Shown in pieces: positions 3,628 through 52,938 of a stretch of DNA of 64,000 nt. This DNA is from Desulfurococcaceae archaeon MEX13E-LK6-19 (lineage in GTDB: Archaea; Thermoproteota; Thermoprotei_A; Sulfolobales; Desulfurococcaceae). Positions within the stretch are counted from its first letter, which is position 1; each line of letters begins with the position of its first letter. The stretch covers positions 1,513,612 through 1,577,611 of the forward strand of contig CP072660.1 in assembly GCA_029637525.1 (NCBI GenBank). Direction: 5' to 3'. The notes below the pieces were generated by a model that worked only from the letters and a program-made list of their open reading frames with translations, ran no database searches and was not told where the DNA came from. Position numbers and translations under genes: made by a program.

Positions 3628-3645
3628 TAAAAGAATTATTCGTTA

Positions 3646-21215: not shown

Positions 21216-21280
21216 GGCTACAGCGGTAAGTCTTTTTACTACAAATAATAGTGACAGTTTCATTATGGGGTAGACATGTA

Positions 21281-23362
21281 GTGTCTCAGCTAAGGCAGTG
21301 TATTGTATTTATATTTGTTTTACTTACAATATCTTCACTGGTATCACCAATGACAAGCAATGTGTTAACCCCAACGCCTCCGATGCCGTCGAAGGATATG
21401 TTGAGAAAATTTCTTGAATCACAATATGTGCCCGAAGCAGGATTGCTTAGAGCTGCTGTCTACGCTAAAGGGGAGAACACGACCATCTATGTTGCTTCAG
21501 ACAACCTCCTTGCTTCTAGGGCTCTACGTGTTCTCGGCAGTCCTCTCGCTGATATAATTAAAAAGAATTTAATGAACTATCCTAACCATGGACACTCTTT
21601 TCTACACGAAGTACTCTTGGGTATAAACATACCTGATGAGATAAGGACTTCGAAGGTCTATGTGCTAGACAGGGTTTATTCCCAGAAATTCAACACTGAT
21701 TTCGTCATCAAATACGAGGTACGTAATGGCTCACTTGTTTTCTTCAACTGGTATAATTTCGCTGACTTAATCGTCTATAAGGCTCTTGATAAAATGCTTG
21801 AAGGCAATATTAGTTTTGCCGAAGAGTGCTTCAGGAGACTAATGAGTAAATGGGATGGACATGGTTTCGCTGATATCAGTAGCGATACCTATGAGACATA
21901 CAAACTCGCATTAGCAATATTCCTTTACCGTGCACTAAAAGCAGCTGGTTCAACAATAGTCGACGAGTACACTGATACAATAAACAAGATCTATGAGATC
22001 CTGGTGCAACTCCAGAGAGAAGACGGGGGCATGGTGACACACTACAGGATCGAAGGAGACAGAGTAGTGTATGCTGGTGACGCCAACACCGAGACCACAA
22101 GTATTGTTGTGCTAGCTTTGTACAGCAGGTACCCAGACATAATAGGTTCTATTGCGAAACTCTCGAACAGCAAGGTTGTTGGGGTATATTATTACGTATG
22201 GTATGGTGATGGAGGCTATGGGAAGGGAAGACACTGGAACAATACTGTCTACGGGTTAGTCCTTGAGGGAGACAAGCCGGTTATAGGATACTACTCGAGT
22301 CTAAACAAGAACGTAGTAGACTGGCAGTTATCGCTGATGAAGAAAGCCGGTATAGACGTGGTATTTATATCATGGTGGGGGCCCAAGAGCTACGAAGACT
22401 GGGCTGCAAGGATCGTGTTTGAGAAACTCAGGGAATATGGGCTGAAAGCCGCTATACTCGTGGAGCCGTTTCTTGGAGGAGACCCTAATCTCTATGACGA
22501 GGAGTTTTGGAATACTGTATTCGACTACATTTACAGGGAATACCTCACCGAGTACACGGACGTGTTCTTCTACCTAAACGGTAAACCGTTGATTCTAGCA
22601 TACAATCCTATAGGAATGACATACAGACCCAATAGTAATTTATTTGAAGTAAGGATCATTGGAAACGATATCGATAACGCAAAATACCAGGACTGGGACC
22701 TGTGGCCAGACTACTTGGCCCCATGGACTAAACCCAAGGACATAGAGCTGAGGATTAGGAGAGACGGCTACGTAGCCATAGCCCCTAGGTTTGATGACAT
22801 GCACTTCTGTAAACACGGTGTTAGAGTAGGATGCGCCTACAGACTCCTTGACCCAGACTATTCTCTCAACGCATACCGTGAACAATGGAGATGGATTGTC
22901 GAGCACAGAGACAAGATAAGAATAGTAGCGATCTACAGCTGGAACGAATACCACGAGAGAAGCATGATCGAGCCACACTACGATGCAACAGCCCAAAACA
23001 ACTACGACCCATACAAACTATACAACGACACAATAAAATACATCAAGTCATACAAAGAAGGACTCCCAATAGAAATAGAAGAAACCACAACAACACAAAC
23101 AACAACAGCCACAGAACAAACCAGCGAAAAGGAAGAAACAGAAACCACCACCCAAACACTAATGTCACCCACAATAACAACAACTACAACAACAGCAAGC
23201 ACTGCAAGTCAACAAACAAGTACTACAACAGCATTAACACAAGATATTATTCCTCCTGAAACACACCACGAAGAAGGCTCCCGGAATATTGTTGCCTTAA
23301 CCATCTTGATCGCTATACTAGCCACGATAATCCTTCTCTTAGTTATTTTAAAGATAAAGTAA
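21281..23362 (+). CDS. Surface-anchored GH99-like (endo-alpha-mannosidase-type) protein
   Basis: A 693-residue exported protein. A signal peptide (QLRQCIVFIFVLLTISSLV) is followed by a helical domain (about residues 80-290) resembling an alpha/alpha toroid. Then comes a TIM-barrel domain of the GH99/WbsX-like group (about 300-590: VGVYYYVWYGDGGYG, VFISWWGPKSYEDWA, AILVEPFLGG, YLNGKPLILAYNP, IYSWNEYHERSMIEP). These enzymes cleave or bind mannosides, possibly on surface glycans. The C-terminus has a threonine/serine/glutamine-rich stalk (about 60 residues), a membrane helix and KIK. GTG at 21281 lies 9 nt after GGGGT; the catalytic residues cannot be assigned surely. Confidence 0.77.
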   Translation: MSQLRQCIVFIFVLLTISSLVSPMTSNVLTPTPPMPSKDMLRKFLESQYVPEAGLLRAAVYAKGENTTIYVASDNLLASRALRVLGSPLADIIKKNLMNYPNHGHSFLHEVLLGINIPDEIRTSKVYVLDRVYSQKFNTDFVIKYEVRNGSLVFFNWYNFADLIVYKALDKMLEGNISFAEECFRRLMSKWDGHGFADISSDTYETYKLALAIFLYRALKAAGSTIVDEYTDTINKIYEILVQLQREDGGMVTHYRIEGDRVVYAGDANTETTSIVVLALYSRYPDIIGSIAKLSNSKVVGVYYYVWYGDGGYGKGRHWNNTVYGLVLEGDKPVIGYYSSLNKNVVDWQLSLMKKAGIDVVFISWWGPKSYEDWAARIVFEKLREYGLKAAILVEPFLGGDPNLYDEEFWNTVFDYIYREYLTEYTDVFFYLNGKPLILAYNPIGMTYRPNSNLFEVRIIGNDIDNAKYQDWDLWPDYLAPWTKPKDIELRIRRDGYVAIAPRFDDMHFCKHGVRVGCAYRLLDPDYSLNAYREQWRWIVEHRDKIRIVAIYSWNEYHERSMIEPHYDATAQNNYDPYKLYNDTIKYIKSYKEGLPIEIEETTTTQTTTATEQTSEKEETETTTQTLMSPTITTTTTTASTASQQTSTTTALTQDIIPPETHHEEGSRNIVALTILIAILATIILLLVILKIK

Positions 23363-27042: not shown

Positions 27043-30000
27043 ATGCCATATACGTCTATGAAACCCTTGTTGTTATTATTCATAACCACTATTATTGTAC
27101 TAAGCCTGATCTCTCCTAGTACCACAGCATTAACAATGAATACTGATAGTGTCGAAGGTATTGATCTGTTGAAGCATGCTCTTGTATCCGAAATAGATGT
27201 CTGGGAAGAAGCCCTTGCTAATGAAGTTTTGTTGAACCTTATCCTTGTGGACATCATCCCCCCTGATGGCAAGTACTATGATCCATTGGTTGAAAGGTTC
27301 TTCTGGGAAACAGTAATACCTAGTGGTGTAGGTAGGGATGAGTATACTGTTCTCTTGTTTAAGTACCTCATACCAAGCAACTTTAGCAATAGCTACTACT
27401 ATACCGCGTTTTTCAACAGAATAATAACTGAAGGCTACAGAATGTATAGATTGAATAGAGAAGCTGATCCCCTTGTCAATAAGGATTCATTCCTATTTTA
27501 CCATAGGCTGCTCTTCGCCTATCTTGTACCAAGTAATTTCAGTGATGGGTACTACTATGACCAGGTATTCTATGTATTATACAGAGAAAACAAGTGGGGG
27601 TTTGCTGAAGTACTGGCATGGATAGCCTATTACAATGAGTTCGGTCCATTCTATGCCACAATACTAACGAAAATAGATCTCGAGGAACAATTCAGGAGCC
27701 TCTTGACAAATTGGGAGCCGGGAGAACCAGTCAATCTGGCCGAGCTCACGCAGCCTGGTAAACTTCATCTAGAACTCTATGGACCCACTGGGCCTTTACA
27801 AGGAGTCTATGTAGTCATATACGATGAGACACTCTGTGATATTGGTTACTGTTACTCCGACAGAGTCTCCTATGGGTTAACCAATGGAAGCGGTGTTGTT
27901 GAATTCGAGCTACCTCCAGGTGTATATAGAGCCAAGCTCTATGGAGCAGCTTACGGTGAAATACATGATATACGTGTTGAGACCAATAAAACAACTAATG
28001 TAACCGAGCTTTTAGGCAAGCTAACCATAGTATTTACTGATTCTTCCGGAAACGGTATTCCAGGACTATCATTTACGTTGTATGAACAAATACTATCCTC
28101 TGGAGGTATTGTAGAACAAGGCTCTCCGATAGCATCACTAACCCTTGATGCAAATGGATCAATTAGCTTCTACATAGTAGAAGGAAGGTATATGGCACGC
28201 CCCTACCTTCCAGGGCACAATACGTATTTCAAAGACATTATTGCCAATGCAGGTGTAGAACACACTTATGTGTTTAACCTTGATGTAAGACAAGTTACCA
28301 TAAGAGCAGTCACCCCAATACCATCAATGCCATTCTACTTCAGTTACCGGATATACGGTCCCGTCCCCGGAGTACCCTACACCTATACCTATACTTCCAA
28401 CTATGAAGGAGTAGCAACCATCTGGTTGAAGCCAGGCGAGTACGCAGTTGAAGTAACGGAGGTTAGTGTAGGGAACCTCGATATAGAGGCAAGTATCTTG
28501 ATCAACTTCACCGTAGACTCTAATAGTGAGGTATCAGTTGAGATCCCATTCTCCGTAGTGGCCGTGAATATAACAGGTATACTACCGGAGACAACACTTA
28601 GGTTCAATGCCTGGAGGCTCCTTGACGATGGAAGCATGATTAGAGTCAGGAATCTTGGGTCAATAGATCTAGGCCAAGCAACAGTAATACCATTGCCTAA
28701 GGGTACATATTACTTTGAGCTAGTGGCTGGCTGGGGTTCACAAAAATACAACTTCACTGTTACCATAAACCCTGTTAACAGTGTATACAATGTAGCCCTA
28801 GACATCCCTGTAGGCTACTTAAACCTATCTACAATACCTGTCGATGGAGGAAATGTTAGAAGATACTACTCTGTATATTTACAGGAGACCATTGGGAACA
28901 TTACTTACTACACCGACTATGTCGGCACCGGTCTAACAGGTTCTTTGACGCCATTACTTCCAGGAAACTATACAGTTATCATCAACGATATTGGTTTAGC
29001 TGAGCCTATATACAATATAGTGATAACAGAGGGTGTCATTACATATAAGAGCATACATCTAGGCAGAATAGTAGTTAATGTAACTACATTCAATTATATG
29101 GGTACTTCCGTACCCATACTGGTATTCCCCTACAATACCACATCAGGGGAACCAGTGTGGAATACATTAGTATACTCGACATACACTAGTGGAGACGGTA
29201 TAGCTGTAATAGACATAGTACCCGGTACATACGCTGTAGCCATACCTGGAGAAAACATCACATTTTACTGGTGGACAAAAATAGGTTATGGAGAAGTCGT
29301 CTTAAACTTAACAGTCGACACCGTCCATACAGTGAATGTTAGTTTCTCTCTAGGAAAACTCTTAGTGAACCTTAATCCTCCATACGATTACAGAGCATAT
29401 ATTGACGAAGATTATTTCATCTACATACTTGAACAAAAAACAGTTAATGGAACACCTGTTTATGGTGACGTCATTAAGTCCATGTATATATGGAGTTTAC
29501 CGATGGTTTTCGACTATGATCTAACACAAGGCGTTTACGCCATAGGAATAGGTTCATACTATGGCGTGTTTAACGACACTGTAATATACAATGTTGCCAT
29601 ATCACCCAACGGGATTACCAATATATCCTATAACTTTGGTATTATACAAATACAAGTTCTCCTAGATAATGGAGAACCCGTTAGCGGGCTATGGGTTGAG
29701 TTATACACGTCAGACGGATACTATCTTGGAGACGACATGACAGAAGTTGATGGTATTGCAAGATTTACTGCCCCTCCAGGAGAATACATGGTCATAGTAT
29801 GGACGCCCGATTATCAACCAATATACCTTAATGTAACAGCCATAGGCCTCGGGATAACATCGTATAACACTACCATACCAGCTGGGTTACTGAAAATACA
29901 TGTTAGGGGGCCTGATGGCGGCCCTGTTGTAGACTACTATGTTGAAGGAGAATCTCCAACATATTATTATTTTGATGGTTACACTGACGTCAATGGTACA

Positions 30001-33000
30001 TTGACTGTATACCTACCAGCAGGGACCTACACCATATACCCACACTACTATAGTGAAAACTTTACAGGCATAGAGGTCAATGTAACTGCTGGTTCTACTA
30101 CCGAGACAACGATTAATCTAAGTCTTGTACTAGCATACATAAACACTACATTTGACCAAAGAGCATATATCTACCTAGTCCTGTCAAACGATCCATACAA
30201 TTACAACTACATCTATACAGCTACAGACTATGAACCTGTACCAATATACTTGACTCCAGGACATTACGTTCTCGAGCTACCCGGCATCAATACCAGTCAC
30301 TGGGGCCGCTACGGCTATGGTGAACAAGTTAAGTTCACCATCAATGAATCAGAGATCAAGATAGTACGCTTCAACTTAACAGCTATAGCTTTAAGACTTG
30401 AAACATTAAGCATGCTGCCTAGAAATATCTACGCAAAGCTATACAGTCAAGTCGATACAAGTATTGACGAATACATCACTACTTGTATTCTACGCTATGA
30501 TCAAAGTCCATCAACATACATGCTAGTAACCCCTGGTACATACGCTGTAGTACTATATGGCCCACCCTATAGCTACAAATGGTCCTACTGGGGTGTGGCG
30601 GGACACAGCTATACATGGTATAATGTATCGGCAACAATGGACAATATACCATTCCTAGAGTACGAGATGGGTCTAGCTATAATCCGCATCAACACAAGCG
30701 ATTCTTCATTATCAATACCGCCAACTAGAGTGGATGTATACGCTCTATACAACGGTGATCTATATGAAGTATACCTCAAATACACTGATACCAACGGGTA
30801 CACGTACTTCTATTTGACGGAGGGAACGTATGTCGCATCAACACCCTACGGTACAACAGTATTCAATGTCACTAGAGGCGGAGTAACATATGTTACAATC
30901 AATGCATCATTCATCGAAGTATACCTGAAGGGTCCTGATGGAGAACCTGTAATCAACACTCTTGTGAACCTATATACTAATGATACAATGCTTATAACTT
31001 ATGGTTATACCGACGAGTATGGTAGAGTGCTATTCGCCGTACAGCCAGGCAACTATACCATTGTCCTCAAGGGGTTAAACTATTACTACTCACCATACAA
31101 TGGAGGTCTTTACAACAACATAAACCTAGGGTATGGTTTAGCCAGGAACGTAGAACTGTTTCCAAACAATAGCACTACAGTAATAATAAATCTCAGCAGA
31201 ATAGATATCGAGATCGGGTGCCCTCTAAGTGGAGCCGATGACCTAGCCGTTCTACTCTATGATAATGTCAGCATGGTTTTCATAAACTCTATGCTCACAA
31301 ATACTAGTGGCAAAGCCAGTTTCTATGTAACAAACGGTTCCTACAGAATACTGCTATTAGGCTACAGCCACGGTTGGAGCGATAGATACTACATAGGAGC
31401 GTATACATGGTATTCAGCAGGTTACGGGGCAGACCTTGGCTCCGTTAATATATCAGGTCTTGTCAAAGCATACTTTACATACAATATATCAGCCGTTTAC
31501 GTATTCCTGAAGACTTTCGACAACGAGCCTGTTATCGCTCAATGGGTAACGGTTTACTCAAGTGATCAAGTTGAACTAAGAGAAGGCTCGGTTAATAGCG
31601 ACGGCGAGCTCATTTTATACTTAACACAAGGATCATACTATATAGCAGTATATCCGTACGACCAAGAACCACTCAATATAACTAGTATTGGTATATATTA
31701 CTACAATAAGACGTTCTCAAAAATAAGAGTAACTATACGTGCACCACCATCCATAATAACAACATATACTGAATACGTTAGAATCTTATTCTATAAAGAC
31801 TATGTAAACTCTAGTTCTAGAGGAACATATATAACAAGCAACTATGTAGCTATAAACGAGACTATAACAACGTATATACTTGTAAACACATCAGCTGCAG
31901 TAATTATACCGGGATATAGGAGTCTTGGCTATACCAGTACTTACGGTTATGGTGATGTCAGATTATTCACTGCAAATACTTCAATAATAGACATTATATT
32001 CAATATGTCCAGGCTAACAATTAGAGTAGAGGGTCCATGGGGCCCTATTAATGGCATACTGACATACATAAGTCCAACAGAAGCCCCTTACGGCTATACA
32101 TACGAGTGGACGGACAGTAATGGCTATGCAGAATTCCTCATAACTGAAGGAAACTACTTCTACTGGACCTACGTGATACCATACACGCATAGAGACGTCG
32201 TATATGTTGATGCGTATACTGCTATTGAGAGAAATATTAGCCTAGGAGCAATACGTATAGTCCACGATCATCATCCCGATGACAGCAAGTTCATAAGGAT
32301 AATAATCTACGATGATAACTACGGATACTTATCATACTTAACAATATATGATGAACAAACAATTTACACGTACAACGGTACATACCATCTTGTATCAAGG
32401 ATCGACAACGGGTGGATTATTGAAAGGAATGTTACTGTACAAGAACTAAACGAGTCAATAGCCGTATTCCCTACGGGAATGATCAGGATACACTTGTTTA
32501 ATGTCGAAAACGAGACCATCATGGATTCACAAGTAGCTAGACTAAACTTACGTGAAGACAGTAGTATAGGCGACCAGGTGAGAATAATTTATTTCAGTAA
32601 TGGTGTAGCTGTAGAAGGTGCTTTAACTCCAGGCAACTATACAATAACATTCCCATACTATTATGCAAACCAATATGGTTACACTAGACTATATAATGTC
32701 TCCGTATATGCTTTACAGCTAACAGACTATGTTATCAAACTAGGGAGACTCCAAGTAAACCTTCTATACAATAATGGTACTCCTGCCGCAAACTATGAAG
32801 TAAAAGTTTATACTACATGGTCTGATGGTAGCATACAGTATCTTATAGATTCAAAATACACTGATGATAATGGCACAGTAGTATTTGATCTAACTAGAGG
32901 AGAGTATGCATTATGGTTGGAAGGACTAGGCTATGTATACGGTATAACATTGTACGATGGGAGACTAACGAATGTAACCTACACAGTATCACCAGCCGAC

Positions 33001-36000
33001 TTGACCGTAACGAATATAACATGGAGCCCCAAGGAGCCGGGCGATGGCGATATAGTGCTTGTGACTGCAAACATAACCAACCTTGGTCCAGGCCATGTAT
33101 TCAACGACTTCCGTGTACGCTTTTACCTAAACGGTACACTAGTGAAGACAGTTGAGGTGCATGGTCTTCTCGCTGGGTATTACGTGTTAGTGACAACACC
33201 TATCACAGCTATTGGCGGTATAGACGAGATCTCTGTTATTGTTGATGCTGAGAAGACTATATTCGATTCAAATAGAACAAACAACAACATGACAGCATAC
33301 ATAAGGGTACTGAAGCCAGACCTACTCGTGCTAAATGCTTCTATTGATGGAGAACTCGTTGATGGCGGCAGAGCAAGAATAACATTCAATATAACCAATC
33401 TAGGGCCTGGCAATACACACAGAACATTCTATGTAAGAGTACTTCATGAAGGAAGGCTTGTCAGAACACTTAGTGTTAACGGGCTAGATGTCAACGATAC
33501 AATAGAGTTATCAGCAGAATTCACTGTAATAGGAGGCGATAATGAGGTAACAATAATTATTGATCCAGACAACGATATTGGCGAGGAGAATGAAACAAAC
33601 AACATATACGTATTAACGTTTTACGCACCACCACCGGATCTAGCAATAATTAGTGCAAACATGAGCTATACTGATTTTATTGATGGCGGGCTGGCTTTAC
33701 TTAATGTAACAATCTCTAATATCGGCGCAGCCAAGACCTATAGGGCATTCTTCGTCAAACTATTTATTGACGGAGAATACGTGTCATCAGCATACTATAG
33801 TGGAGGACTAGATGTAGGCGAGACAATTAACCTAATATTCTACATGCTACTGAGAGGAGGAGTCCACACAATAACGGTAATCATAGATCCCGACCACAGG
33901 ATCCCCGATCCAGATAGAGACAACAACGTATACACTATCAACTATACGTTGCCAGCACCAGACTTATCTGTAGAGAACCTCACTGTAGAACCATCTATTG
34001 CTGGCGAAGGAGAAGAAGTAACAGTAGCATTTACTGTTGCTAACAAAGGTGCTGGTGGAACCAAGACGAAATTCTATGTAGACCTTTACGTGGACGGTGT
34101 ACCATACGACACAACATACATAGATACACCACTAATGCCAAGTGATAATGTCACGAGAAGCTTTGTACTAGCACTGAGTGCAGGCAATCATACGCTCGAG
34201 ATAATTGTTGACCCTACTGAAAAAACTGGTGACATCAATAGAACAAACAACAATGCCACAATCATTGTAACTATCTTGAGTAGCGATATAGAGGTAGTAT
34301 CACTAGAAATCAATACATCCGGTGGACTCCATTACAGTGCTGAAGCAGAGGTCAAGGCTGTTATAAGAAACAATGGTCCAGGTTCAATAAACAAGACATT
34401 CTATGTGTCATTTTTCGATAACGATGAATTCATTAGACAAGTAGCAGTAAACAGTCTCGCTGTAGGCGAAAACATTACTATAACCATACCAATAGCTCTA
34501 ACCAGCGGTAACAGGACGTTTAAGGTTATTGCTGACGACCACTACATGGTATGCCCTACTCCAGGCGTATGTATATACAAGCATAGACACGAAATATCGG
34601 ATCTAGATAGAGGAAACAATAATGCATCCATAAGAATCTATGTACCCGGGCCAGACCTCATCATAACCAATATTACTATAGATCCAAGCGTACCCAAAGC
34701 ATGGGGTAATTTCACGGTATACTTAACGATCAAGAACATAGGCGACTACAAATTCAATGACACCCTAGATATACTGCTAAGTATAGGTAACAACAACTAC
34801 TTGATCCATGCAGGCACTATACTAGAACCAGGCGACGAAATAACAGTTGCCAAGAACATATACGAAGGCTTAATGCCAGGAAACCATAGCATTAAAGCCG
34901 TAGTAGACATATTCAACGCAATTATAGAACTCAATGAAAGTAACAACGACTATACAACAATATTGAGTATACCGTTACCAGACATAGAAATAACAAGAAT
35001 TCACGTTAATGCATCACAAGTACTCAATAACCTAGATGTATACAACATAACAATCACTATCAGGAACAATGGATGGAGCTTCAACCACTTCTTCTACATA
35101 GTGGTCAAGCTAGGCAATGTGAACTGGTATATCAAGAGAGTTGTTTTAGAAGGAGAATTTAGTACAGGAGAAGAGAAAAATGTTACCATACAGTTATTTG
35201 CAAGACCGCCAGGTGGGCAAGAATATGTTGTCTATGCTGATTTCGTTAATACGATACCTGAATCAAACGAGTCCAATAACATAATATACTTCACAACACC
35301 TCTAGTGCGTTCACTAGACATAAGCGAGCAAACATACACCCTATGGTATACGATTGTTGAAGAGTCTAGAATAAGAATTGTTAACACTGGTGGTGTACCA
35401 CTAGAGCTAGTTAACATAACATTCAATGAGCCATGGATAACCATTGACTATAATAGCACAATAGTGCTTGCACCGGGAGAACATATCGACCTAGAAATGC
35501 ATGTCAACACATCATACACTGGCATAGGCTCATTCCCTGTGGTCATAACAATTGAAACCAATACAAGTTATTCAATGACCGAAGAAATATATGTTCGTGT
35601 CATAGACCCGGACCTAATGTTCCGTGTCAGTACATCACAAAGCTATGTAGAGACCAGTTTAACTGGCATAATCAACCTAGCAATACATATATCATCGTCA
35701 TTCTATCCCACTAGCAACTATACTGTAAGGTTTTCAGGCAATGCAACAGTAATGATGACAGGTAGCCAAGAATTCATGGTATCAAGAACAGGGGCCTACG
35801 GGGTTTGTCTAAATGCTTCTCCATTACTAATCACGCCTGGCAAGTACGTACTTGAGGTAGAGGTTACCATAGTTGAGTATAATATATCAAAAAGAATGTC
35901 AATTAACATAACGATCTACGAGGATCCAATCATAATAGATATTATGCCTATGAATAACACATTCATACCATCAAACACTCTAGTTATCGCTTGGAGGACT

Positions 36001-39000
36001 AATGTACCGACAAATGGTACACTTTACTTCAGAGAAGTAGGAGAGCAGTCGTTTATAGAAATACCTTATGACAAAGACGTTAAACATGAATTCCATCTGG
36101 GAGGACTGCTCGTTAACCATTCATACGAGTTCTATATAGTTGCTGAAACAGACGCGGGTTCAGTTACAACGAAAATATACAGGATCACTGTACTGCCATC
36201 GGTGGGCTTTAAGGAACACGAGGTAACTGTAAGGATCAGACGAGACTACATGCAGGTCGTAACAATAGATGTAGTTAACAATGACAAGTACTTCAGCCAT
36301 GCCATAGTAGCATGGATCGCTAACCCATACCCAGACTTAATACTAAACTTTGTTGGCAGCGGCTCTATCGACAAAGAACTACGCGTATCACCAGAGTCTA
36401 CAGCAAGATTACAGCTCGTAATACACGCGGCAGACACTGTAGCAACAAACTATACCATCACTGCAATACTTGTCAACTTGGATAACAATGCCACGGATGT
36501 CATGACAATACATATTATAATCGAGGAACCCGTCTTCGATATCAGGCTTGAGTACCTTGGTATGGACAACTACACGCTTGTACAAGTCTATAAGCTCACG
36601 AACTACGGTGACACAATAACTGACCTATCAGTATATCTAGTTGGTCCCATAAGCGCATATGCTTATGTATACCCAGATATGAACCACATACTGATCAAAC
36701 ATGGCGAAACAATAATATTCTATGTCATACCAATACTCTCGCAGCTACCAGAAGACCCCAATTTAGTTGTGGGAACAATTGTTGTTGAGACAAAAGACCC
36801 ACGAAACATAGAGTTCAAGACGGACTACTTCAAACCTCCAGAAGGCTATAAGATCTATAGAGTTATGGTGGAAAGCATAACTATCCGTGCTAAGGCAAAT
36901 GACTGGTATTGTACCAATAGACCTCGTGTCACGACAAAACTGAGGATATCAAGCGACCCACCAGACGACACAGGAACAGCAACACTCTACATAACATTCC
37001 TACCTAAATCAGATGTTCTGCCTCATGACGGACAGATACTTGTCAATGGTGCACCCGTGTATTCGTGGAGTAATGATGTCCCAAGAGGAGTTGTTGCCGT
37101 AGAAGTACCTCTGAGTGTACTAAACCTTAACCCAAGTGGCGGGATCTCCGAAGTAACTATAGAGATAAATACAGAGCATATGAATGGCGGACACTACGTT
37201 GTTGCAACAGGTTTCGAGCTACTAGTCAATGTCAAAGGCGGAGTGTACTATGTAGCTGCTAAAAACTATGAAGAGGCTAGAGAGAAAGTCTATAGTATAT
37301 TCAAGCCAAACCTGGTTCACATAGACCCAATCGATTGTGAGACAATACAGAAACCACCAGCACTCATAAAAGCGATAGTAGGAACACTGAAGTCAGGCAT
37401 ATCACTTGACATAGGCGAGATAACTAGTTTCCCAGACCTGATAAAGGGTCTTCTAGGGAGTTTCATCGAGGTAGACGCCAAGATCGAGGGTAGCGTAGCG
37501 GAGACACTGACCACTATAGATATCACTCTTGCAGGCAAGCTTGAGCTAAAGTTTGCCACCGAGATAGTCCGTGGGGAAGCCTATGGTAAACTAGGATGGG
37601 CTATTATGAACTGTGAATGGAAGTTTACTGGTGGTACACTAGGTGGTTCATTAAAGTACGGTAAGACCATGCCATTCCCATTACCGAAAACATGGCTTTC
37701 CTACATCAATAAACATGGTGTCAAAGTTAATGCTGAGGTACTCATAGGTGTAAGCAACGTCGTCATAAAAATCGATGAACGCCTCAGCATAGTAGCTATA
37801 CCTTCATTCCTCATAGGAATAGAGACATCCGGTATAGCAGAACTCGAGCTTAGTGAAGACACAAAACTAAAGATCACATTCAAGCTAACAGGTGATATAG
37901 GTTGGGAGGACAATAACCCAACAGGCAAGATCGCTGTTAGTGTTGCAGGCGATGTTTCACTAGAATTTGGTCCATGGGAATACACGTACAGTGGTGAATG
38001 GGGAGTAAAGTTCTTGGCAAGATACAATGTTGCTGCAGGTAAATGGGAATGGGGTGTAAGACCATTAAGCGATCCTGGGGCAACAACCAGACAATACTAC
38101 TTCTATGCGGATCAGCTAGGCTACCCGTATATAGTTCTTGCAGACCAGTATTCCTCATCAAACCCATCGTTATCATACATGCCTGGAGTAGGTCTTGTTG
38201 CAGTATGGATTGCCTCTAACGAGAACACCACAAAGATCATGTACTCAGTATACAATGGCTCTAGCTGGAGTGAACCAAGCCAGATACCAGCCCCGGATGG
38301 GCCATGGTATATTAGTGTTGAAACCAGTGTTGTTTCTGGAAAACTCGTTGTCTTAGTAACCGCTATAGACCCATTTGACCCAACGAATATGACCTATGAA
38401 GAGGTCGCAGCAATACTAGAGAACAAAACACTATACTACACGATATGGGACGGCAATACATGGTCTACACTAACAGCTATCACACATGGTGTAGCAGGAC
38501 TACTTGATACTGCTTCAACAGGAGAAAAGATTCTTGCCGTATGGAAAACTATTGTAGACGATAAGGAGGCCATAACTTATAGTATCATGGAGGCTATGTC
38601 ATGGACTTCACCATCGATACTAACAAGCACCATAGTTGATAACGAGACACTATCTATACGTAGCATAGCTGCAGTATTCATGGACGACAAGCCAGTAATA
38701 GTATGGACACGCGACATCTACAGGAACGAGACTGGATCACAGATCCTACTATACACCGGAATGTACTATATCATGTATGAGAACAGTACGTGGAGCCAGC
38801 CTGAACTAGTAGAAAACGTTACAGACCCCATATCAGTAGACGCCGTATCGAATCAGACAAGTTTATACGTTATATGGAGTAGTGAAGAGGACTACCTATA
38901 CGTTATAGCATTCAATGGTACATCATGGCTAAATAACACCGTGATCGGTAGAGGCTCACTGCCTACAATAGCGTTTTACAACAATACTATAGCTGTTCTG

Positions 39001-41592
39001 GCTAGAAGCTTCTACAACACAACATACACCGATGTATCAATGTACATAGTTGGCCTAGAGACACTATCGTCGACAACAATACAGCATATAACAGTTGACG
39101 AGCTTGAGGACAATGATTACGATGTAGAGTACTATAATGGCGAACCAATCCCTATATGGACGAGAAGATATGAAAACACAAGTGATTTACCGGAAGGCTA
39201 TGTTTATGCTTATGGCTTGTACTATGTAAAACCTGTAGAAATCGCTATAACAGGGTTCAAGGCAACACCTACCGCGACCATTGAGGGTAACCCGATTAGT
39301 GTTGAAGTAAATATTACAAATAGAGGTGAAGACAACGCTACATTCAATATTCTAGCATACCTTAATGACACACTAGTTTATAACCAGAGGCTAAGTATTG
39401 TCAGTGATACAACAATAACCCATAGCTTCAACGTAACACCAATAGATAAAGGCGTCTATGTGTTAAGGGTTGTTGTAGCAGACTCAACACCACCCAATAT
39501 CTTAGGCGAACCAGAAGCTTCAGCAATAATCAACTCTACTAGACTACTTGAAGTCACGACTCCAGCGAACATGAGTTTTGTAGAAAACACAACGAGAATA
39601 ACTGGTGTTGTAAAAGGCCTCGTGCCAGCTAACGTAACGGTTTATATCATTGAAGAAGAAGAGCGAACACCTATAGCTTCCCTAGGATTTGTTATAGGCG
39701 AGTGGGAAGCCCCACTTAATACGACAACACTAAGCGACGGCCCCGTGAAGATACTTGTCGAAGCATCAACCGGTGGTGCAATAGATTCTTGCACACTAGT
39801 ATTACTCGTGGACAACACTCCACCAACAATAAACTTCATAACCCCGACCAACAACAGTTTTGTAGCCAGAGAAATAGCGATTAATGTAACAGCTTATGAC
39901 GAGTATTACAGTCTGCCAAATATTCCATTCTACAGAATCAATAACAGCACTTGGACCCCGATGCAATACCTAGACAACAACACTTACTACATACTCGTGG
40001 ACACTAGGAACCATACTGACGGCATACCATTGATCATTGAAGTAAACACTACGGATCTCTCTGGAAAAACCACGGTAGAGAAAATAGTACTCATACCAGA
40101 TAATACACCACCAGAAACTATTGATAACACTACTACGGCATGGCTAAACAGGGATGTAACCATAGTCCTCGATACTATTGACAACGTATCCGGTATAGCA
40201 GAAACCTTCTATAGAGTTGATGGAGGAGAATGGATTTCTGGCACAATAATACTGATACAAGCTTTCGCCAACCACAGTAATGATGGTGTTCACGTAGTAG
40301 AATACTATAGTATCGACAATGTCGGTAACGTCGAGCCAGTAAAGACAGCCTATGTGTATGTAGATACAACTCCGCCTACAATGAGTGTAGAAGGATTATA
40401 TAATGATTCCTATGTTAAAAACTCAGTACTCATCAACGGCATCGTCTCCGATGAGCTATCCGGCGTAGCGTTTGTTACAATATCTATTGATGGCTCTGAG
40501 CCTATAGAAATAGAGCCAGTGAACGACACATGGAGCTATCTATTAGATACAACGATTTATGGTGATGGATTACACCAGATGACCGTGACGGTTATTGATA
40601 ACGCTGGAAACAACTATACAACCACAATAGAATTCAACATAGACAACACTCCACCAACAGCAACATTCACCGCACCCCAGCCAAATAGTGTAGTTAGCAG
40701 AGCTACTGTCTTAGAGTTCAGCTACAGCGACGACAACATAGACAAGGCAATACTAATCATCAACGGGACATCTATTGATGTAACTGGACGTAATAACTAT
40801 ACAATAGACACAACAATATATCCCGACGGAGCTCTTGTAGTAATGCTGAATGTTAGTGATAAAGCAGGAAACTATCATGTAACCAATGTAACAGTAATTA
40901 TAGACAACACGCCACCAACAGCAACCATAGTAAGCCCGGCATCATACACACTGGTATCAGGAACTACAACCATAGAGTTCACATACAATGACACCAACTT
41001 CTACAAAGCAATCCTATACATAAACAATATAGAATACAATGTCACTGGACGCAACAACTACACTATAGACACTTCACTCTATACAGACGGTTACTTAAAC
41101 ATAACATTAAAAGCAGTAGACCTTGCCGGAAACACCAACACATCATCAATAATTATAGTCGTAGATAACACACCACCACAAGTAACCATAATGAGTCCAA
41201 GCAATGGAACAAAAGTAGAGTCAGGCATACTAGCAGTGTCATGGAACATAATAGAGCCACACCTAGACAAAGCCATCCTGTACATTGATGGAGAACCCGT
41301 CGATGTAACGAGTATTTCAACCTACAATATAGATGTCGACTCTCTAACACTAGGAGTACATACGATAACATTGTATGCCGTAGACAAACTAGGCCACGAG
41401 TCTAACACTACAATAGTAATAGAAAAGATAGAAGCAGTAACAACAACTACGACAACCACAACAGCGGAGACAACGACAACAACGACCCCACCAGGATTCA
41501 CTATAGGAACTGCTGTAGCAATAACTGTACTAGTCCTGTTAGCCATAGCCCTTATATTACTACTGAGAAGAGGTAAACTCCTTAAAACATAA
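27043..41592 (+). CDS. Giant modular cell-surface protein, 4849 residues
   Basis: After a signal peptide (KPLLLLFITTIIVLSLIS) and a helical domain to about residue 230, about 20 beta-sandwich modules of the carboxypeptidase-regulatory/SpaA type (each about 87 residues, ending PGxY/EGxY) extend to about residue 1985. Seven CARDB modules follow to about 2750 (PDLxxxN starts, xxTNNN ends). Further beta-sandwich regions lead to a distinct domain (about 3270-3690). A WxxxSW-rich predicted propeller spans about 3690-4060, then one more CARDB-like module and about seven Ig-like modules with DNTPPT joints (about 4160-4800). The end is a threonine stalk, one membrane helix and RRGKLLKT. It is probably a heavily N-glycosylated filament or adhesin on the cell surface. 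ATG 27043 or 27058 could be the start. Confidence 0.92.
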   Translation: MPYTSMKPLLLLFITTIIVLSLISPSTTALTMNTDSVEGIDLLKHALVSEIDVWEEALANEVLLNLILVDIIPPDGKYYDPLVERFFWETVIPSGVGRDEYTVLLFKYLIPSNFSNSYYYTAFFNRIITEGYRMYRLNREADPLVNKDSFLFYHRLLFAYLVPSNFSDGYYYDQVFYVLYRENKWGFAEVLAWIAYYNEFGPFYATILTKIDLEEQFRSLLTNWEPGEPVNLAELTQPGKLHLELYGPTGPLQGVYVVIYDETLCDIGYCYSDRVSYGLTNGSGVVEFELPPGVYRAKLYGAAYGEIHDIRVETNKTTNVTELLGKLTIVFTDSSGNGIPGLSFTLYEQILSSGGIVEQGSPIASLTLDANGSISFYIVEGRYMARPYLPGHNTYFKDIIANAGVEHTYVFNLDVRQVTIRAVTPIPSMPFYFSYRIYGPVPGVPYTYTYTSNYEGVATIWLKPGEYAVEVTEVSVGNLDIEASILINFTVDSNSEVSVEIPFSVVAVNITGILPETTLRFNAWRLLDDGSMIRVRNLGSIDLGQATVIPLPKGTYYFELVAGWGSQKYNFTVTINPVNSVYNVALDIPVGYLNLSTIPVDGGNVRRYYSVYLQETIGNITYYTDYVGTGLTGSLTPLLPGNYTVIINDIGLAEPIYNIVITEGVITYKSIHLGRIVVNVTTFNYMGTSVPILVFPYNTTSGEPVWNTLVYSTYTSGDGIAVIDIVPGTYAVAIPGENITFYWWTKIGYGEVVLNLTVDTVHTVNVSFSLGKLLVNLNPPYDYRAYIDEDYFIYILEQKTVNGTPVYGDVIKSMYIWSLPMVFDYDLTQGVYAIGIGSYYGVFNDTVIYNVAISPNGITNISYNFGIIQIQVLLDNGEPVSGLWVELYTSDGYYLGDDMTEVDGIARFTAPPGEYMVIVWTPDYQPIYLNVTAIGLGITSYNTTIPAGLLKIHVRGPDGGPVVDYYVEGESPTYYYFDGYTDVNGTLTVYLPAGTYTIYPHYYSENFTGIEVNVTAGSTTETTINLSLVLAYINTTFDQRAYIYLVLSNDPYNYNYIYTATDYEPVPIYLTPGHYVLELPGINTSHWGRYGYGEQVKFTINESEIKIVRFNLTAIALRLETLSMLPRNIYAKLYSQVDTSIDEYITTCILRYDQSPSTYMLVTPGTYAVVLYGPPYSYKWSYWGVAGHSYTWYNVSATMDNIPFLEYEMGLAIIRINTSDSSLSIPPTRVDVYALYNGDLYEVYLKYTDTNGYTYFYLTEGTYVASTPYGTTVFNVTRGGVTYVTINASFIEVYLKGPDGEPVINTLVNLYTNDTMLITYGYTDEYGRVLFAVQPGNYTIVLKGLNYYYSPYNGGLYNNINLGYGLARNVELFPNNSTTVIINLSRIDIEIGCPLSGADDLAVLLYDNVSMVFINSMLTNTSGKASFYVTNGSYRILLLGYSHGWSDRYYIGAYTWYSAGYGADLGSVNISGLVKAYFTYNISAVYVFLKTFDNEPVIAQWVTVYSSDQVELREGSVNSDGELILYLTQGSYYIAVYPYDQEPLNITSIGIYYYNKTFSKIRVTIRAPPSIITTYTEYVRILFYKDYVNSSSRGTYITSNYVAINETITTYILVNTSAAVIIPGYRSLGYTSTYGYGDVRLFTANTSIIDIIFNMSRLTIRVEGPWGPINGILTYISPTEAPYGYTYEWTDSNGYAEFLITEGNYFYWTYVIPYTHRDVVYVDAYTAIERNISLGAIRIVHDHHPDDSKFIRIIIYDDNYGYLSYLTIYDEQTIYTYNGTYHLVSRIDNGWIIERNVTVQELNESIAVFPTGMIRIHLFNVENETIMDSQVARLNLREDSSIGDQVRIIYFSNGVAVEGALTPGNYTITFPYYYANQYGYTRLYNVSVYALQLTDYVIKLGRLQVNLLYNNGTPAANYEVKVYTTWSDGSIQYLIDSKYTDDNGTVVFDLTRGEYALWLEGLGYVYGITLYDGRLTNVTYTVSPADLTVTNITWSPKEPGDGDIVLVTANITNLGPGHVFNDFRVRFYLNGTLVKTVEVHGLLAGYYVLVTTPITAIGGIDEISVIVDAEKTIFDSNRTNNNMTAYIRVLKPDLLVLNASIDGELVDGGRARITFNITNLGPGNTHRTFYVRVLHEGRLVRTLSVNGLDVNDTIELSAEFTVIGGDNEVTIIIDPDNDIGEENETNNIYVLTFYAPPPDLAIISANMSYTDFIDGGLALLNVTISNIGAAKTYRAFFVKLFIDGEYVSSAYYSGGLDVGETINLIFYMLLRGGVHTITVIIDPDHRIPDPDRDNNVYTINYTLPAPDLSVENLTVEPSIAGEGEEVTVAFTVANKGAGGTKTKFYVDLYVDGVPYDTTYIDTPLMPSDNVTRSFVLALSAGNHTLEIIVDPTEKTGDINRTNNNATIIVTILSSDIEVVSLEINTSGGLHYSAEAEVKAVIRNNGPGSINKTFYVSFFDNDEFIRQVAVNSLAVGENITITIPIALTSGNRTFKVIADDHYMVCPTPGVCIYKHRHEISDLDRGNNNASIRIYVPGPDLIITNITIDPSVPKAWGNFTVYLTIKNIGDYKFNDTLDILLSIGNNNYLIHAGTILEPGDEITVAKNIYEGLMPGNHSIKAVVDIFNAIIELNESNNDYTTILSIPLPDIEITRIHVNASQVLNNLDVYNITITIRNNGWSFNHFFYIVVKLGNVNWYIKRVVLEGEFSTGEEKNVTIQLFARPPGGQEYVVYADFVNTIPESNESNNIIYFTTPLVRSLDISEQTYTLWYTIVEESRIRIVNTGGVPLELVNITFNEPWITIDYNSTIVLAPGEHIDLEMHVNTSYTGIGSFPVVITIETNTSYSMTEEIYVRVIDPDLMFRVSTSQSYVETSLTGIINLAIHISSSFYPTSNYTVRFSGNATVMMTGSQEFMVSRTGAYGVCLNASPLLITPGKYVLEVEVTIVEYNISKRMSINITIYEDPIIIDIMPMNNTFIPSNTLVIAWRTNVPTNGTLYFREVGEQSFIEIPYDKDVKHEFHLGGLLVNHSYEFYIVAETDAGSVTTKIYRITVLPSVGFKEHEVTVRIRRDYMQVVTIDVVNNDKYFSHAIVAWIANPYPDLILNFVGSGSIDKELRVSPESTARLQLVIHAADTVATNYTITAILVNLDNNATDVMTIHIIIEEPVFDIRLEYLGMDNYTLVQVYKLTNYGDTITDLSVYLVGPISAYAYVYPDMNHILIKHGETIIFYVIPILSQLPEDPNLVVGTIVVETKDPRNIEFKTDYFKPPEGYKIYRVMVESITIRAKANDWYCTNRPRVTTKLRISSDPPDDTGTATLYITFLPKSDVLPHDGQILVNGAPVYSWSNDVPRGVVAVEVPLSVLNLNPSGGISEVTIEINTEHMNGGHYVVATGFELLVNVKGGVYYVAAKNYEEAREKVYSIFKPNLVHIDPIDCETIQKPPALIKAIVGTLKSGISLDIGEITSFPDLIKGLLGSFIEVDAKIEGSVAETLTTIDITLAGKLELKFATEIVRGEAYGKLGWAIMNCEWKFTGGTLGGSLKYGKTMPFPLPKTWLSYINKHGVKVNAEVLIGVSNVVIKIDERLSIVAIPSFLIGIETSGIAELELSEDTKLKITFKLTGDIGWEDNNPTGKIAVSVAGDVSLEFGPWEYTYSGEWGVKFLARYNVAAGKWEWGVRPLSDPGATTRQYYFYADQLGYPYIVLADQYSSSNPSLSYMPGVGLVAVWIASNENTTKIMYSVYNGSSWSEPSQIPAPDGPWYISVETSVVSGKLVVLVTAIDPFDPTNMTYEEVAAILENKTLYYTIWDGNTWSTLTAITHGVAGLLDTASTGEKILAVWKTIVDDKEAITYSIMEAMSWTSPSILTSTIVDNETLSIRSIAAVFMDDKPVIVWTRDIYRNETGSQILLYTGMYYIMYENSTWSQPELVENVTDPISVDAVSNQTSLYVIWSSEEDYLYVIAFNGTSWLNNTVIGRGSLPTIAFYNNTIAVLARSFYNTTYTDVSMYIVGLETLSSTTIQHITVDELEDNDYDVEYYNGEPIPIWTRRYENTSDLPEGYVYAYGLYYVKPVEIAITGFKATPTATIEGNPISVEVNITNRGEDNATFNILAYLNDTLVYNQRLSIVSDTTITHSFNVTPIDKGVYVLRVVVADSTPPNILGEPEASAIINSTRLLEVTTPANMSFVENTTRITGVVKGLVPANVTVYIIEEEERTPIASLGFVIGEWEAPLNTTTLSDGPVKILVEASTGGAIDSCTLVLLVDNTPPTINFITPTNNSFVAREIAINVTAYDEYYSLPNIPFYRINNSTWTPMQYLDNNTYYILVDTRNHTDGIPLIIEVNTTDLSGKTTVEKIVLIPDNTPPETIDNTTTAWLNRDVTIVLDTIDNVSGIAETFYRVDGGEWISGTIILIQAFANHSNDGVHVVEYYSIDNVGNVEPVKTAYVYVDTTPPTMSVEGLYNDSYVKNSVLINGIVSDELSGVAFVTISIDGSEPIEIEPVNDTWSYLLDTTIYGDGLHQMTVTVIDNAGNNYTTTIEFNIDNTPPTATFTAPQPNSVVSRATVLEFSYSDDNIDKAILIINGTSIDVTGRNNYTIDTTIYPDGALVVMLNVSDKAGNYHVTNVTVIIDNTPPTATIVSPASYTLVSGTTTIEFTYNDTNFYKAILYINNIEYNVTGRNNYTIDTSLYTDGYLNITLKAVDLAGNTNTSSIIIVVDNTPPQVTIMSPSNGTKVESGILAVSWNIIEPHLDKAILYIDGEPVDVTSISTYNIDVDSLTLGVHTITLYAVDKLGHESNTTIVIEKIEAVTTTTTTTTAETTTTTTPPGFTIGTAVAITVLVLLAIALILLLRRGKLLKT

Positions 41593-45775: not shown

Positions 45776-46666
45776 TTGGCTATGGAGATTGTTGTCGCAA
45801 GTGGGAAAGGCGGGACAGGAAAGACGTTTATTTCATCCAACCTTGTGTTTTACCTGCATAAACTAGGGAGAAGAGTAGTAGCTGTTGACGCTGATGCCGA
45901 GGCTCCTGATCTACTGCTTGCCCTCGGAGGCCCTAAAGAAAACATTCTTGTCCACAAGATATCCAGCTCTAGGAAAGCAGTAATCGAACATAGCCGGTGT
46001 ATAGGTTGTCTAAAATGCGTTGATGTATGTAGATTTTATGCGCTCGAAGTAGAGAACCATAAGCCACGTGTTATCAGGGAGTATTGTGAAGGATGTGGTG
46101 CATGCAGTATCGTATGCCCTGTTAATGCCATAGAGTTCTACAACATGGACACCGGGGTTGTGAGAATCGATGTATCTCGTGTCGGCGTCCCCGTAGTGAC
46201 CGCTGATCTCGTGGTTGGCGGTAGGAATACTGGTGAACTAGTGTATAAAGCTAAGGAGGAAGCTAGTAGGCTAGCCTATGAGAATAAAGCTGATGTAATC
46301 GTGGTTGATGCAGCCGCTGGTATTGGATGCCCTGTTATATCAAGTATAGCTGGATCAGATGTTCTCCTGGTAGTCGTAGAGCCTGTGCCCCCATCTCTCC
46401 AAGGCGCTGAGAGACTACTTAAACTAGCTAGGCAATTCAATGTAAAACCATTCCTCATAATCAACAAGTATGACCTAGACCCACAATACTCCAATGAAAT
46501 AGTTGACAGACTTGGCATAGAGGTTCTAGGGAAAATACCTTATGATAGAGCTGTAGCCGAATCATATGCCAACATGGAGCCTATACTATACTCCAAGCCG
46601 GATCATCCTGTATCCCATGCTTTATCAAGTACTTTCAAGAACCTATTGGAGTGTGTAGAAGGATGA
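45776..46666 (+). CDS. MinD/Mrp-type P-loop ATPase with inserted 2x[4Fe-4S] ferredoxin domain (1)
   Basis: A 296-residue protein of the COG1149 type. The deviant Walker A is SGKGGTGKTF with the signature second lysine. A ferredoxin insert at about residues 72-125 follows (CIGCLKCVDVC and CEGCGACSIVC), then the Walker B-type VIVVDAAAGIGCP and switch segments (VVEPVPPSLQGAERLL). These ATPases are thought to load or move iron-sulfur clusters or electrons. TTG at 45776, directly after the NifX stop and 4 nt after GAGGAT, fits better than the ATG at 45782, which remains possible. It overlaps its paralogue downstream. Confidence 0.88.
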   Translation: MAMEIVVASGKGGTGKTFISSNLVFYLHKLGRRVVAVDADAEAPDLLLALGGPKENILVHKISSSRKAVIEHSRCIGCLKCVDVCRFYALEVENHKPRVIREYCEGCGACSIVCPVNAIEFYNMDTGVVRIDVSRVGVPVVTADLVVGGRNTGELVYKAKEEASRLAYENKADVIVVDAAAGIGCPVISSIAGSDVLLVVVEPVPPSLQGAERLLKLARQFNVKPFLIINKYDLDPQYSNEIVDRLGIEVLGKIPYDRAVAESYANMEPILYSKPDHPVSHALSSTFKNLLECVEG

Positions 46667-47544
46667 CGAAAATAATTGTTGTAGCCGGTGGGAAAGGCGG
46701 TGTAGGAAAAACATTCATTGCAGTCAACCTCGCCTATGCTTTATACAATAAGGGATCCCGTGTACTCCTCGTAGACGCTGACGTGGAAAACCCCAGTGTT
46801 CTCACTATTGTTAAAGCAAAAATAACCAACACAATCGTATCCAAGAGCTTTAGACCAGTTATAAACTACAGTGTATGTGATGGATGTGGTATTTGTGTAA
46901 ACTATTGTCCCGAACACGCTTTGGTGCTACTACCCGGCAAGAAGCTTGTATTCTACGAGACACTCTGTGGCGGATGTAGTGTATGCAAACTCGTATGCCC
47001 CCAAAATGCGATAGATGAGGGCGAGCGCCGTGAAGGAGTATTCAAGTACGGTATTGTAGACAAAGGCTTTGATGTTATTGTAGGAGAACTAGAGCCGGGT
47101 AACAGGAGAAGTATTGTACTAATAACGAAGCTTATTGAAGAACACAAGAAGAGGTTCAACAACTATGACTACGTAGTCATAGACTCGCCTCCAGGCACGG
47201 GTGCTGGCTTATACTCTATTCTCAGGTATGCAACCCATATAGTTGCCGTAACCGAGCCAACACCTCTGGGAATAAGCGATTTGACGAAATTCCTCAAACT
47301 AATAGAGGCATACAAAGAGAATACGAAAACAATAATCGTAGTAAACAAGTACGGGCTATCAGCCAAAGCCTACAAAACCCTAGAGGAAATAATCACCCAA
47401 AAAAGACTCCCATACATAAGAATACCATACACGAAACTAGTCCAAGAATCTTATACTGCTGGACAACCACTGATCCTCTACAACCCAGATCCAAATATTA
47501 TCTCGAAAATAGAGGAACTAGCAAACCTAGTCAAGAAAGAGTAA
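46663..47544 (+). CDS. MinD/Mrp-type P-loop ATPase with inserted 2x[4Fe-4S] ferredoxin domain (2)
   Basis: The 293-residue paralogue of the preceding protein has Walker A AGGKGGVGKTF, ferredoxin insert CDGCGICVNYC and CGGCSVCKLVC, and VVIDSPPGTGAGL. The pair probably forms a heterodimer, as in other archaea where two such genes follow a NifX-like gene. The ATG overlaps the previous TGA by 4 nt (ATGA), indicating coupled translation. A role in building or repairing a metal-sulfur cofactor, perhaps for the tungsten and Fe-S enzymes of this organism, is inference. Confidence 0.89.
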   Translation: MTKIIVVAGGKGGVGKTFIAVNLAYALYNKGSRVLLVDADVENPSVLTIVKAKITNTIVSKSFRPVINYSVCDGCGICVNYCPEHALVLLPGKKLVFYETLCGGCSVCKLVCPQNAIDEGERREGVFKYGIVDKGFDVIVGELEPGNRRSIVLITKLIEEHKKRFNNYDYVVIDSPPGTGAGLYSILRYATHIVAVTEPTPLGISDLTKFLKLIEAYKENTKTIIVVNKYGLSAKAYKTLEEIITQKRLPYIRIPYTKLVQESYTAGQPLILYNPDPNIISKIEELANLVKKE

Positions 47545-51489: not shown

Positions 51490-52938
51490 TTAGACTCTTT
51501 TCTTCATGTAAAGGAATATCATAATCCCTGCAACCACTATTACTACTATTGTCGCTATCAATAGTTTGGTTGATAACAATGGTTGTGATGGAGTTGTTTC
51601 TGTTTCAGTAGTTGTCGTAGTAGTCGTGGTCGTTGTTGTGGTAGTGGTTGTTGTCGTCGTGGTGGTTGTGGTCGTCGTAGTTGTTGTAGTAGTTGTAGTT
51701 GTGGTTGTTGTGGTGGTCGTAGTAGTTGTCTCTACTTTCAACTCTACAAGGAATTTTGCCTTGGAATCAGCTCCCGGTGTTGCAACAATTGTTTTATTGA
51801 GATCTCCTTCAGGTACTATGTAGGCATACCATTTTGTTGAATTACTGTACACAACTATTTCTCCTTGCCTAGAATTCGGTATTGGGTTCAAGCTAGCTTC
51901 TACTACTGTATCTCCATTAGGATTCGCCAGAAGCACTACTGTCACAATGTATCCGCTTACATTGAGTTCTACTCTAACAGGTATAGGTACTGGGTCCCCG
52001 AACAAGTTAAGTCTAGTGTTATGAATTACAACATATGTGCTGTTGACATAGCTTACATTGAGATAGCCCACGTCCTGGTCTACTTCAAACCATATTGGCT
52101 CATACTCGTACCTGCCATCAGGATAAAGTATTAAGACTAGATAGTGGTGTTTCCCTAAGACTACCACACCATCCTCTATACTGGTTGGGTAATCGTATAG
52201 AGGAGCTCCAGCACCACCGGTTATAATGTATTTGATCCCGTTGACAACTGTTTCAGCATATCCATGCCAGTGTCCTTGGAGTACTAATGTCACGTTATAG
52301 TATTCCAGCATCTTCTTTAAGGGAGTTCCTCTATCAGAGTCAATATTATGCATTACATATGGATAAAGTGGTCTATGAAATACAGCAATAATCTTTCTTC
52401 CCTGCGGAGCCTGTTCGAGAGTAAGGTTTGTCAAGGAGAGAAAATCGCTCTTGAGTCTTTCTTCAGTATTAATAAACGCTATATACCATCCAGGTATTTC
52501 TGACACTCCATAGAATGTGTCTGCTATAATACTTTTCCATAAATTGGCATAGGGATCGTCTTCAATATCGTGGTTTCCAACGGCAAGCCATACATTCTCG
52601 AGATCCTTGAGTGTATTATAGAGCTCTATGAGCTGCTCCTCTGTGCCAAGACCCACGTGATCACCTGTTCCTATTACAGCAAATGGCCTGATCTCCTTTA
52701 ATTCATCAACAATAGCATAAAAGACCTCGGGTAACTCAACTTGACTAGTATTCTCAGGTCTATTATCTCCTATTACAACAACTGGATACCATGGCAGATT
52801 CTGTGGCAGACTCCTGTAGGTCTTCTCGAATAAACGTTGATCAACACCTGCTTCTGCCCATAACACCATAGCATTCATGAAACTCAGTACCACAACGAAG
52901 ATAAGTATTGCCGCTGCTAAAACACCGCCCTTAGTCAT
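51490..52938 (-). CDS. Surface-anchored calcineurin-like phosphoesterase with a poly-threonine stalk
   Basis: A 482-residue protein with a signal peptide (VLAAAILIFVVVLSFMNAMVLW). The metallophosphoesterase domain has GDNRPEN, VIGTGDHVGLG, VGNHDIEDD, VFHRPLYP and LQGHWHGYAE, the dimetal ligands of the calcineurin fold. A beta-rich domain (about 290-415) follows. Then come 41 consecutive threonines (codons at about 51612-51734), TETETTPSQP, a membrane helix and KKRV. It probably hydrolyses phosphate esters or nucleotides outside the cell. The ACN codons are mixed, so the run is not a simple DNA slippage product. It is convergent with galE. Confidence 0.9.
   Translation of the reverse strand: MTKGGVLAAAILIFVVVLSFMNAMVLWAEAGVDQRLFEKTYRSLPQNLPWYPVVVIGDNRPENTSQVELPEVFYAIVDELKEIRPFAVIGTGDHVGLGTEEQLIELYNTLKDLENVWLAVGNHDIEDDPYANLWKSIIADTFYGVSEIPGWYIAFINTEERLKSDFLSLTNLTLEQAPQGRKIIAVFHRPLYPYVMHNIDSDRGTPLKKMLEYYNVTLVLQGHWHGYAETVVNGIKYIITGGAGAPLYDYPTSIEDGVVVLGKHHYLVLILYPDGRYEYEPIWFEVDQDVGYLNVSYVNSTYVVIHNTRLNLFGDPVPIPVRVELNVSGYIVTVVLLANPNGDTVVEASLNPIPNSRQGEIVVYSNSTKWYAYIVPEGDLNKTIVATPGADSKAKFLVELKVETTTTTTTTTTTTTTTTTTTTTTTTTTTTTTTTTTTTTTTTTETETTPSQPLLSTKLLIATIVVIVVAGIMIFLYMKKRV
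51612..51734 (-). repeat. Poly-threonine coding tract (41 codons)
   Basis: Forty-one successive ACN codons using all four third bases encode an uninterrupted threonine run between the ectodomain and the membrane helix. In archaeal surface proteins such tracts act as O-glycosylated stalks. Confidence 0.85.

Follow-up and report, generated by a model that had tools for sequence, protein, structure and literature searches.

The window, a 64,000-nucleotide stretch of CP072660.1, carries at 27043–41592 on the plus strand a gene that runs from ATG to TAA without an internal stop and encodes a protein of 4849 residues. The host genome is a single contig of 1.91 Mb. Computed from the translation, the protein has a mass of 540 kDa, a pI of 4.5, 11 cysteines and 154 N-glycosylation sequons. 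The third-position GC content of the gene is 0.385, compared with 0.35–0.52 for genes of the window only, and is uninformative on expression. Searches of relatives, of the kind proposed in the preliminary description of this DNA, found homologues in other genera: among 99 relatives, colinear proteins with approximately 35% identity and few gaps occur in four other Desulfurococcaceae genera. The homologue in G023 (contig C50) is complete, with 5361 residues. Those in G001 (C51) and G014 (C90) have at least 4931 and at least 4718 residues, the former cut by a contig end and the latter lacking its start; G014 and G023 represent one genus. In G008 and G010 the homologues are present as fragments. 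The frame, initially described as single and unbroken, thus has open, colinear counterparts in assemblies obtained independently from other genera, and both a chance frame and an assembly error can be dismissed. Archaeal proteins above 5000 residues are rare (PMC11573180), in agreement with the earlier remark that such a size is exceptional in archaea. The retention of the protein across genera implies that a giant of this kind can be an old, selected gene.

The two ends of the protein indicate secretion and anchoring. A signal peptide is assigned from hydropathy and sequence to residues 1–30 (27043–27132; plus strand, as for all parts of the gene), with a hydrophobic segment at approximately residues 5–28. 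Translation may instead start slightly downstream, at the ATG at 27058 (MKPLLLL...). Near the C-terminus, a Thr-rich linker evident in the sequence (residues 4791–4816; 41413–41490) precedes a transmembrane helix recognised by hydropathy at approximately residues 4817–4841 (41491–41565), followed by a short basic tail; this supports the membrane anchor claimed previously. Between these ends we find 20 SpaA/CnaB-like modules, 8 CARDB modules, about 7 Ig-like modules and one propeller, the same counts as in the preliminary description, together with three parts absent from it: a helical domain (residues 31–222), a core cassette (2951–3420) and a beta meander (3421–3680). There is good support for a stalk built from one chain of about 44 modules, with a signal peptide and a C-terminal anchor.

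The helical domain (residues 31–222; 27133–27708) contains repeated LIPxNxSxxYYY motifs. It is all-alpha in the AF2 model, at moderate to low confidence, has no Pfam match and, among 229 genomes of the class, is confined to the protein family of the giant. It is followed by 20 SpaA/CnaB/carboxypeptidase-regulatory-like beta-sandwich modules (residues 223–1975; 27709–32967), assigned from a G-x-Y signature, AF2 and Foldseek. The signature, which is conserved in the homologues, marks 16 of the 20 modules between residues 293 and 1953, recurring every 75–100 residues; the other four modules were placed by the expected spacing, and one is degenerate. The AF2 model of the N-terminal part, including the first several of these modules, has a mean pLDDT of 62 and was built on a three-sequence alignment. 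Compared by Foldseek, its first modules resemble CnaB pilins and adhesins of Gram-positive bacteria, and a CnaB/SpaA-like fold is predicted for residues 223–960 with moderate confidence. Structure prediction of the chain, which had been suggested as a check, thus yields sandwiches of this type for the first modules, as well as a propeller further downstream. A conserved Lys-Asn isopeptide pair in each SpaA-like module was not found in the giant; because only one lysine is invariant among the 20 modules, there is no conserved isopeptide bond.

Seven CARDB modules follow (residues 1976–2690; 32968–35112). Pfam PF07705 matches the giant above cut-off (1.2e-82, 273 bits) in eight stretches; an eighth CARDB-like module lies after the propeller, where it was placed from the sequence at approximately residues 4061–4160 (39223–39522). 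Two further Ig-like modules (residues 2691–2950; 35113–35892), read from the sequence and the colinear alignment, separate the CARDB block from the core cassette. Next to the membrane, Big_13/Big_7 matches and repeat analysis define an array of about seven Ig-like modules (residues 4161–4790; 39523–41412), including an OmpL47-type module at residues 4371–4440. This tail contains an exact 87-residue unit, whose copy number differs between genera.

The blocks had been thought to have grown by tandem duplication, which holds for the CARDB block and the 87-residue Ig tail but not for the 20 SpaA-like modules. Neighbouring CARDB modules score 81 against each other, compared with 34 for non-neighbours, whereas the corresponding values in the SpaA block are 20.8 and 20.3, showing no neighbour effect. 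Duplicates are similar at the DNA level in the last Ig units only (61–75% at the nucleotide level), and recent DNA-level tandem duplication across the gene as a whole is rejected. For 14–16 of the 20 SpaA-like modules, and for all seven CARDB modules, the best match in other genera is the positional counterpart, indicating that both blocks are older than the split between genera. Within one genus, the tail copies of the two species are orthologous position by position, with 84–95% amino acid identity; the tail expansion is therefore not very recent. As judged from these alignments, the genera share a fixed and long-established number and order of modules upstream of the tail, and only the membrane-proximal tail varies in its copies.

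The most conserved region of the chain is the core cassette (residues 2951–3420; 35893–37302), delimited by conservation and homologues, in which 39% of positions are invariant among the long homologues. It comprises an fn3-like domain, two Ig-like domains and a beta-sandwich bearing the motif DWYCTNRP...HMNGGHYVV. This sandwich is a module of its own, as in L053 a long insertion sets it apart from the rest of the cassette. Neither Pfam nor NCBIfam offers a model for the cassette, which gives weak fn3-type matches at most, and it has no sequence relative in the PDB. At least two domain families, the N-terminal tip and the core sandwich, are thus missing from Pfam and NCBIfam.

Within the family, the core is found in 6 of 40 Desulfurococcaceae genomes, representing 5 of 16 genera; some of these genomes are incomplete drafts, so that absence from them is weak evidence. 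Of 398 sampled genomes of the phylum, only two had it, both Desulfurococcaceae. Its presence in only six family genomes agrees with an accessory role at the surface. The G008 assembly contains three copies of the core and three of the N-terminal region, on contigs C20, C120, C130, C56, C111 and C177, which suggests three paralogous giants in one genome; on C130, what follows the core is different. Two scans of viral contigs revealed no relative of the core, and the viral fold matches of the giant are generic Ig and propeller folds; a viral origin is rejected.

Outside the family, a scan of 84,980 genomes identified core homologues in Chloroflexota (Anaerolineae, Aquidulcis), a Euryarchaeota MAG and Methanophagales, with more in those classes; many weak Chloroflexota matches cover the fn3 part only and are not to be counted as core. 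The homologues are parts of giants, in Methanophagales-type archaea as in Chloroflexota, and have different domains around them. Two Chloroflexota giants, L050 and L051, share the core at 30–31% identity and continue with DUF6531 and RHS repeats; in these proteins RHS, Big_1/Invasin_D3 and DUF11 take the place of the propeller and CARDB modules, whereas a Pfam scan found no RHS/YD repeats in our giant. L083, from an archaeon of the Methanophagales class, carries a Big_7 and a transglutaminase domain after its core. Upstream of the core, the distant homologues have stalks of Big_1/Invasin_D3, DUF11 or CARDB domains. The core thus connects surface stalks of archaea with giant RHS proteins of bacteria. 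We tentatively raise the idea that it is an unnamed hub, common to archaea and bacteria, which couples extracellular stalks to functional parts that can be exchanged and might serve as a common chassis for long-range cell contact. In Desulfurococcaceae the part would be a lectin-like propeller, in Chloroflexota an RHS shell and in the archaeon of the Methanophagales class a transglutaminase.

Downstream of the core in the giant, AF2 predicts a helical lead-in and a meander of approximately eight long antiparallel strands (residues 3421–3680; 37303–38082). Cys 3432 and Cys 3524 are invariant in this domain, which is essentially without a Pfam or NCBIfam model. Residues 3681–4060 (38083–39222) are predicted to form a lectin/sialidase-like beta-propeller, an assignment based on AF2, Foldseek and weak Pfam matches. 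The AF2 model of residues 2960–4085 has a mean pLDDT of 74, with values mostly of 80–93 in the propeller. Its Foldseek matches are the fucose lectins AAL, RSL and PLL3 (TM-score to target approximately 0.5–0.62) and the sialidase Neu2. The predicted fold is common to AAL/RSL/PLL lectins and sialidase propellers; sequence identity to the fold matches is low, about 12–16%, and no sequence-level match was found in the PDB. Pfam searches with the propellers of the homologues gave weak matches to Neuraminidase-like in two and BNR_2 in one. The arginine triad of sialidases is not conserved in the propeller region, where a single arginine is invariant. The propeller is thus similar to sialidases in fold but lacks their catalytic triad, and we reject its identity as a sialidase. 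The absence of the triad argues for binding rather than hydrolysis, and glycans are the probable ligand given the predicted fold.

The structure and anchoring of the giant are well supported, and from them we infer a role in adhesion. We lean towards a secreted, C-terminally anchored stalk, separate from the S-layer, that acts most likely in adhesion or aggregation, between cells or between cell and surface; the lectin-like character of the propeller favours adhesion. The fibre, cell-cell link or adhesin suggested in the preliminary description is plausible. Some 40 sandwiches of 3.5–4 nm each would allow the chain to reach about 150 nm from the membrane, with the helical N-terminal domain as the presumed outer tip. 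The propeller would bind glycans of neighbouring cells, of the biofilm matrix or of the glycoprotein coat of the cell itself, and the stand-off of propeller and core would be set by the membrane-proximal Ig array. The predicted position of the propeller, in the membrane-proximal third and away from the tip where the head of a classical adhesin is expected, speaks against this reading. If the propeller does bind glycans, the giant is a candidate long-range adhesin for hyperthermophilic archaea.

Two other groups of large archaeal surface proteins are similar in outline. The SPEARE giants of nanohaloarchaea (PMC10266531) also combine a signal peptide, one or more beta-propellers, a long Ig-like array, a transmembrane anchor and an acidic composition. 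However, they have their propellers near the N-terminus and end in a cytoplasmic VirB4/TraG-like ATPase; the giant has a short basic tail after the transmembrane helix, and a Pfam scan found no such ATPase domain in it. The VARTIG Ig proteins of Thermococcales (PMC8416519) are likewise large, secreted and archaeal, with CARDB/Ig domains. They are encoded by the first genes of variable operons and have a hypervariable C-terminal Ig domain, whereas the giant is encoded by a stand-alone gene.

A different role, which we consider unlikely, is that in this organism the giant helps to build the S-layer or outer envelope, as a very long stalk-and-arm protein that tiles the surface in place of tetrabrachion. 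Tetrabrachion, the S-layer stalk of Staphylothermus marinus (PMC5744192), belongs to the same family of organisms and shares with the giant a C-terminal anchor, beta-rich arms and a long projection. The anchor and the beta-rich chain also recall SlaB, and Foldseek matches of the N-terminal model include both SlaB and an S-layer protein (7ptp). Tetrabrachion, however, has about 1500 residues and a right-handed coiled-coil stalk (PMC5744192), and no such stalk is seen in the giant. We searched for tetrabrachion with a profile and with a coiled-coil stalk query, which is borne out by a 98% match in G022. G022, G014 and G010 carry tetrabrachion-type genes and G023 a fragment, at loci distinct from that of the giant; no full tetrabrachion was found in G001 or G008, and none in the genome of the window, where this result would fit an S-layer role of the giant. 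Because tetrabrachion genes coexist with the giant in G014 and G010, and as a fragment in G023, the giant does not simply serve as S-layer protein in these organisms. The giant is also missing from most members of the family. The profile match in G000 is a different protein and was set aside: L103:699-4133 (G000:C1, about 1217198–1220632) encodes 1144 residues that read like a C25-type peptidase; its C-terminal coiled coil and transmembrane helix resemble the anchor of tetrabrachion.

It is improbable that the giant acts in antagonism or delivery, with the core as a chassis for exchangeable effector parts and the chain reaching a neighbouring cell. Such a role is suggested by the domains that follow the core elsewhere, DUF6531 with RHS repeats in Chloroflexota and transglutaminase in the archaeon of the Methanophagales class. 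In a Pfam scan, however, the giant itself shows neither RHS repeats nor a protease, a transglutaminase or any other known effector domain, and no partner or immunity-like gene is conserved downstream of it. The lectin-like propeller and a GH99-like protein encoded nearby (21251–23362) would also fit scavenging, in which the cell-bound giant holds extracellular polysaccharide for neighbouring secreted hydrolases, but its neighbourhood differs from that of the homologues, and we regard this role as doubtful.

The genes directly after the giant are on the opposite strand, and we find no conserved operon: the giant shares no neighbours with its homologues in other genera. The protein at 21251–23362 (plus strand) is secreted and anchored, resembles a GH99-type glycoside hydrolase in sequence, and has a Thr-rich linker and a transmembrane helix. 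Another secreted, C-terminally anchored protein (51490–52938, minus strand) reads like a metallophosphatase, and over 40 consecutive threonines precede its transmembrane helix; a homologue with 34% identity is encoded downstream of the giant in G014. A secreted protein of about 390 residues is encoded downstream of the giants of G023 (C50, 22395–23603) and G014 (C90, 14641–15795), the two being 83% identical to each other; it has no counterpart in the window. Approximately 15 kb downstream of the giant of G014 lies L034 (C90, 28895–33571), which encodes a large putative surface protein of 1558 residues. At 45776–47544 (plus strand) of the window, two adjacent, related genes for ParA/MinD-type ATPases with ferredoxin-like inserts, 33–35% identical, follow a NifX-like gene.
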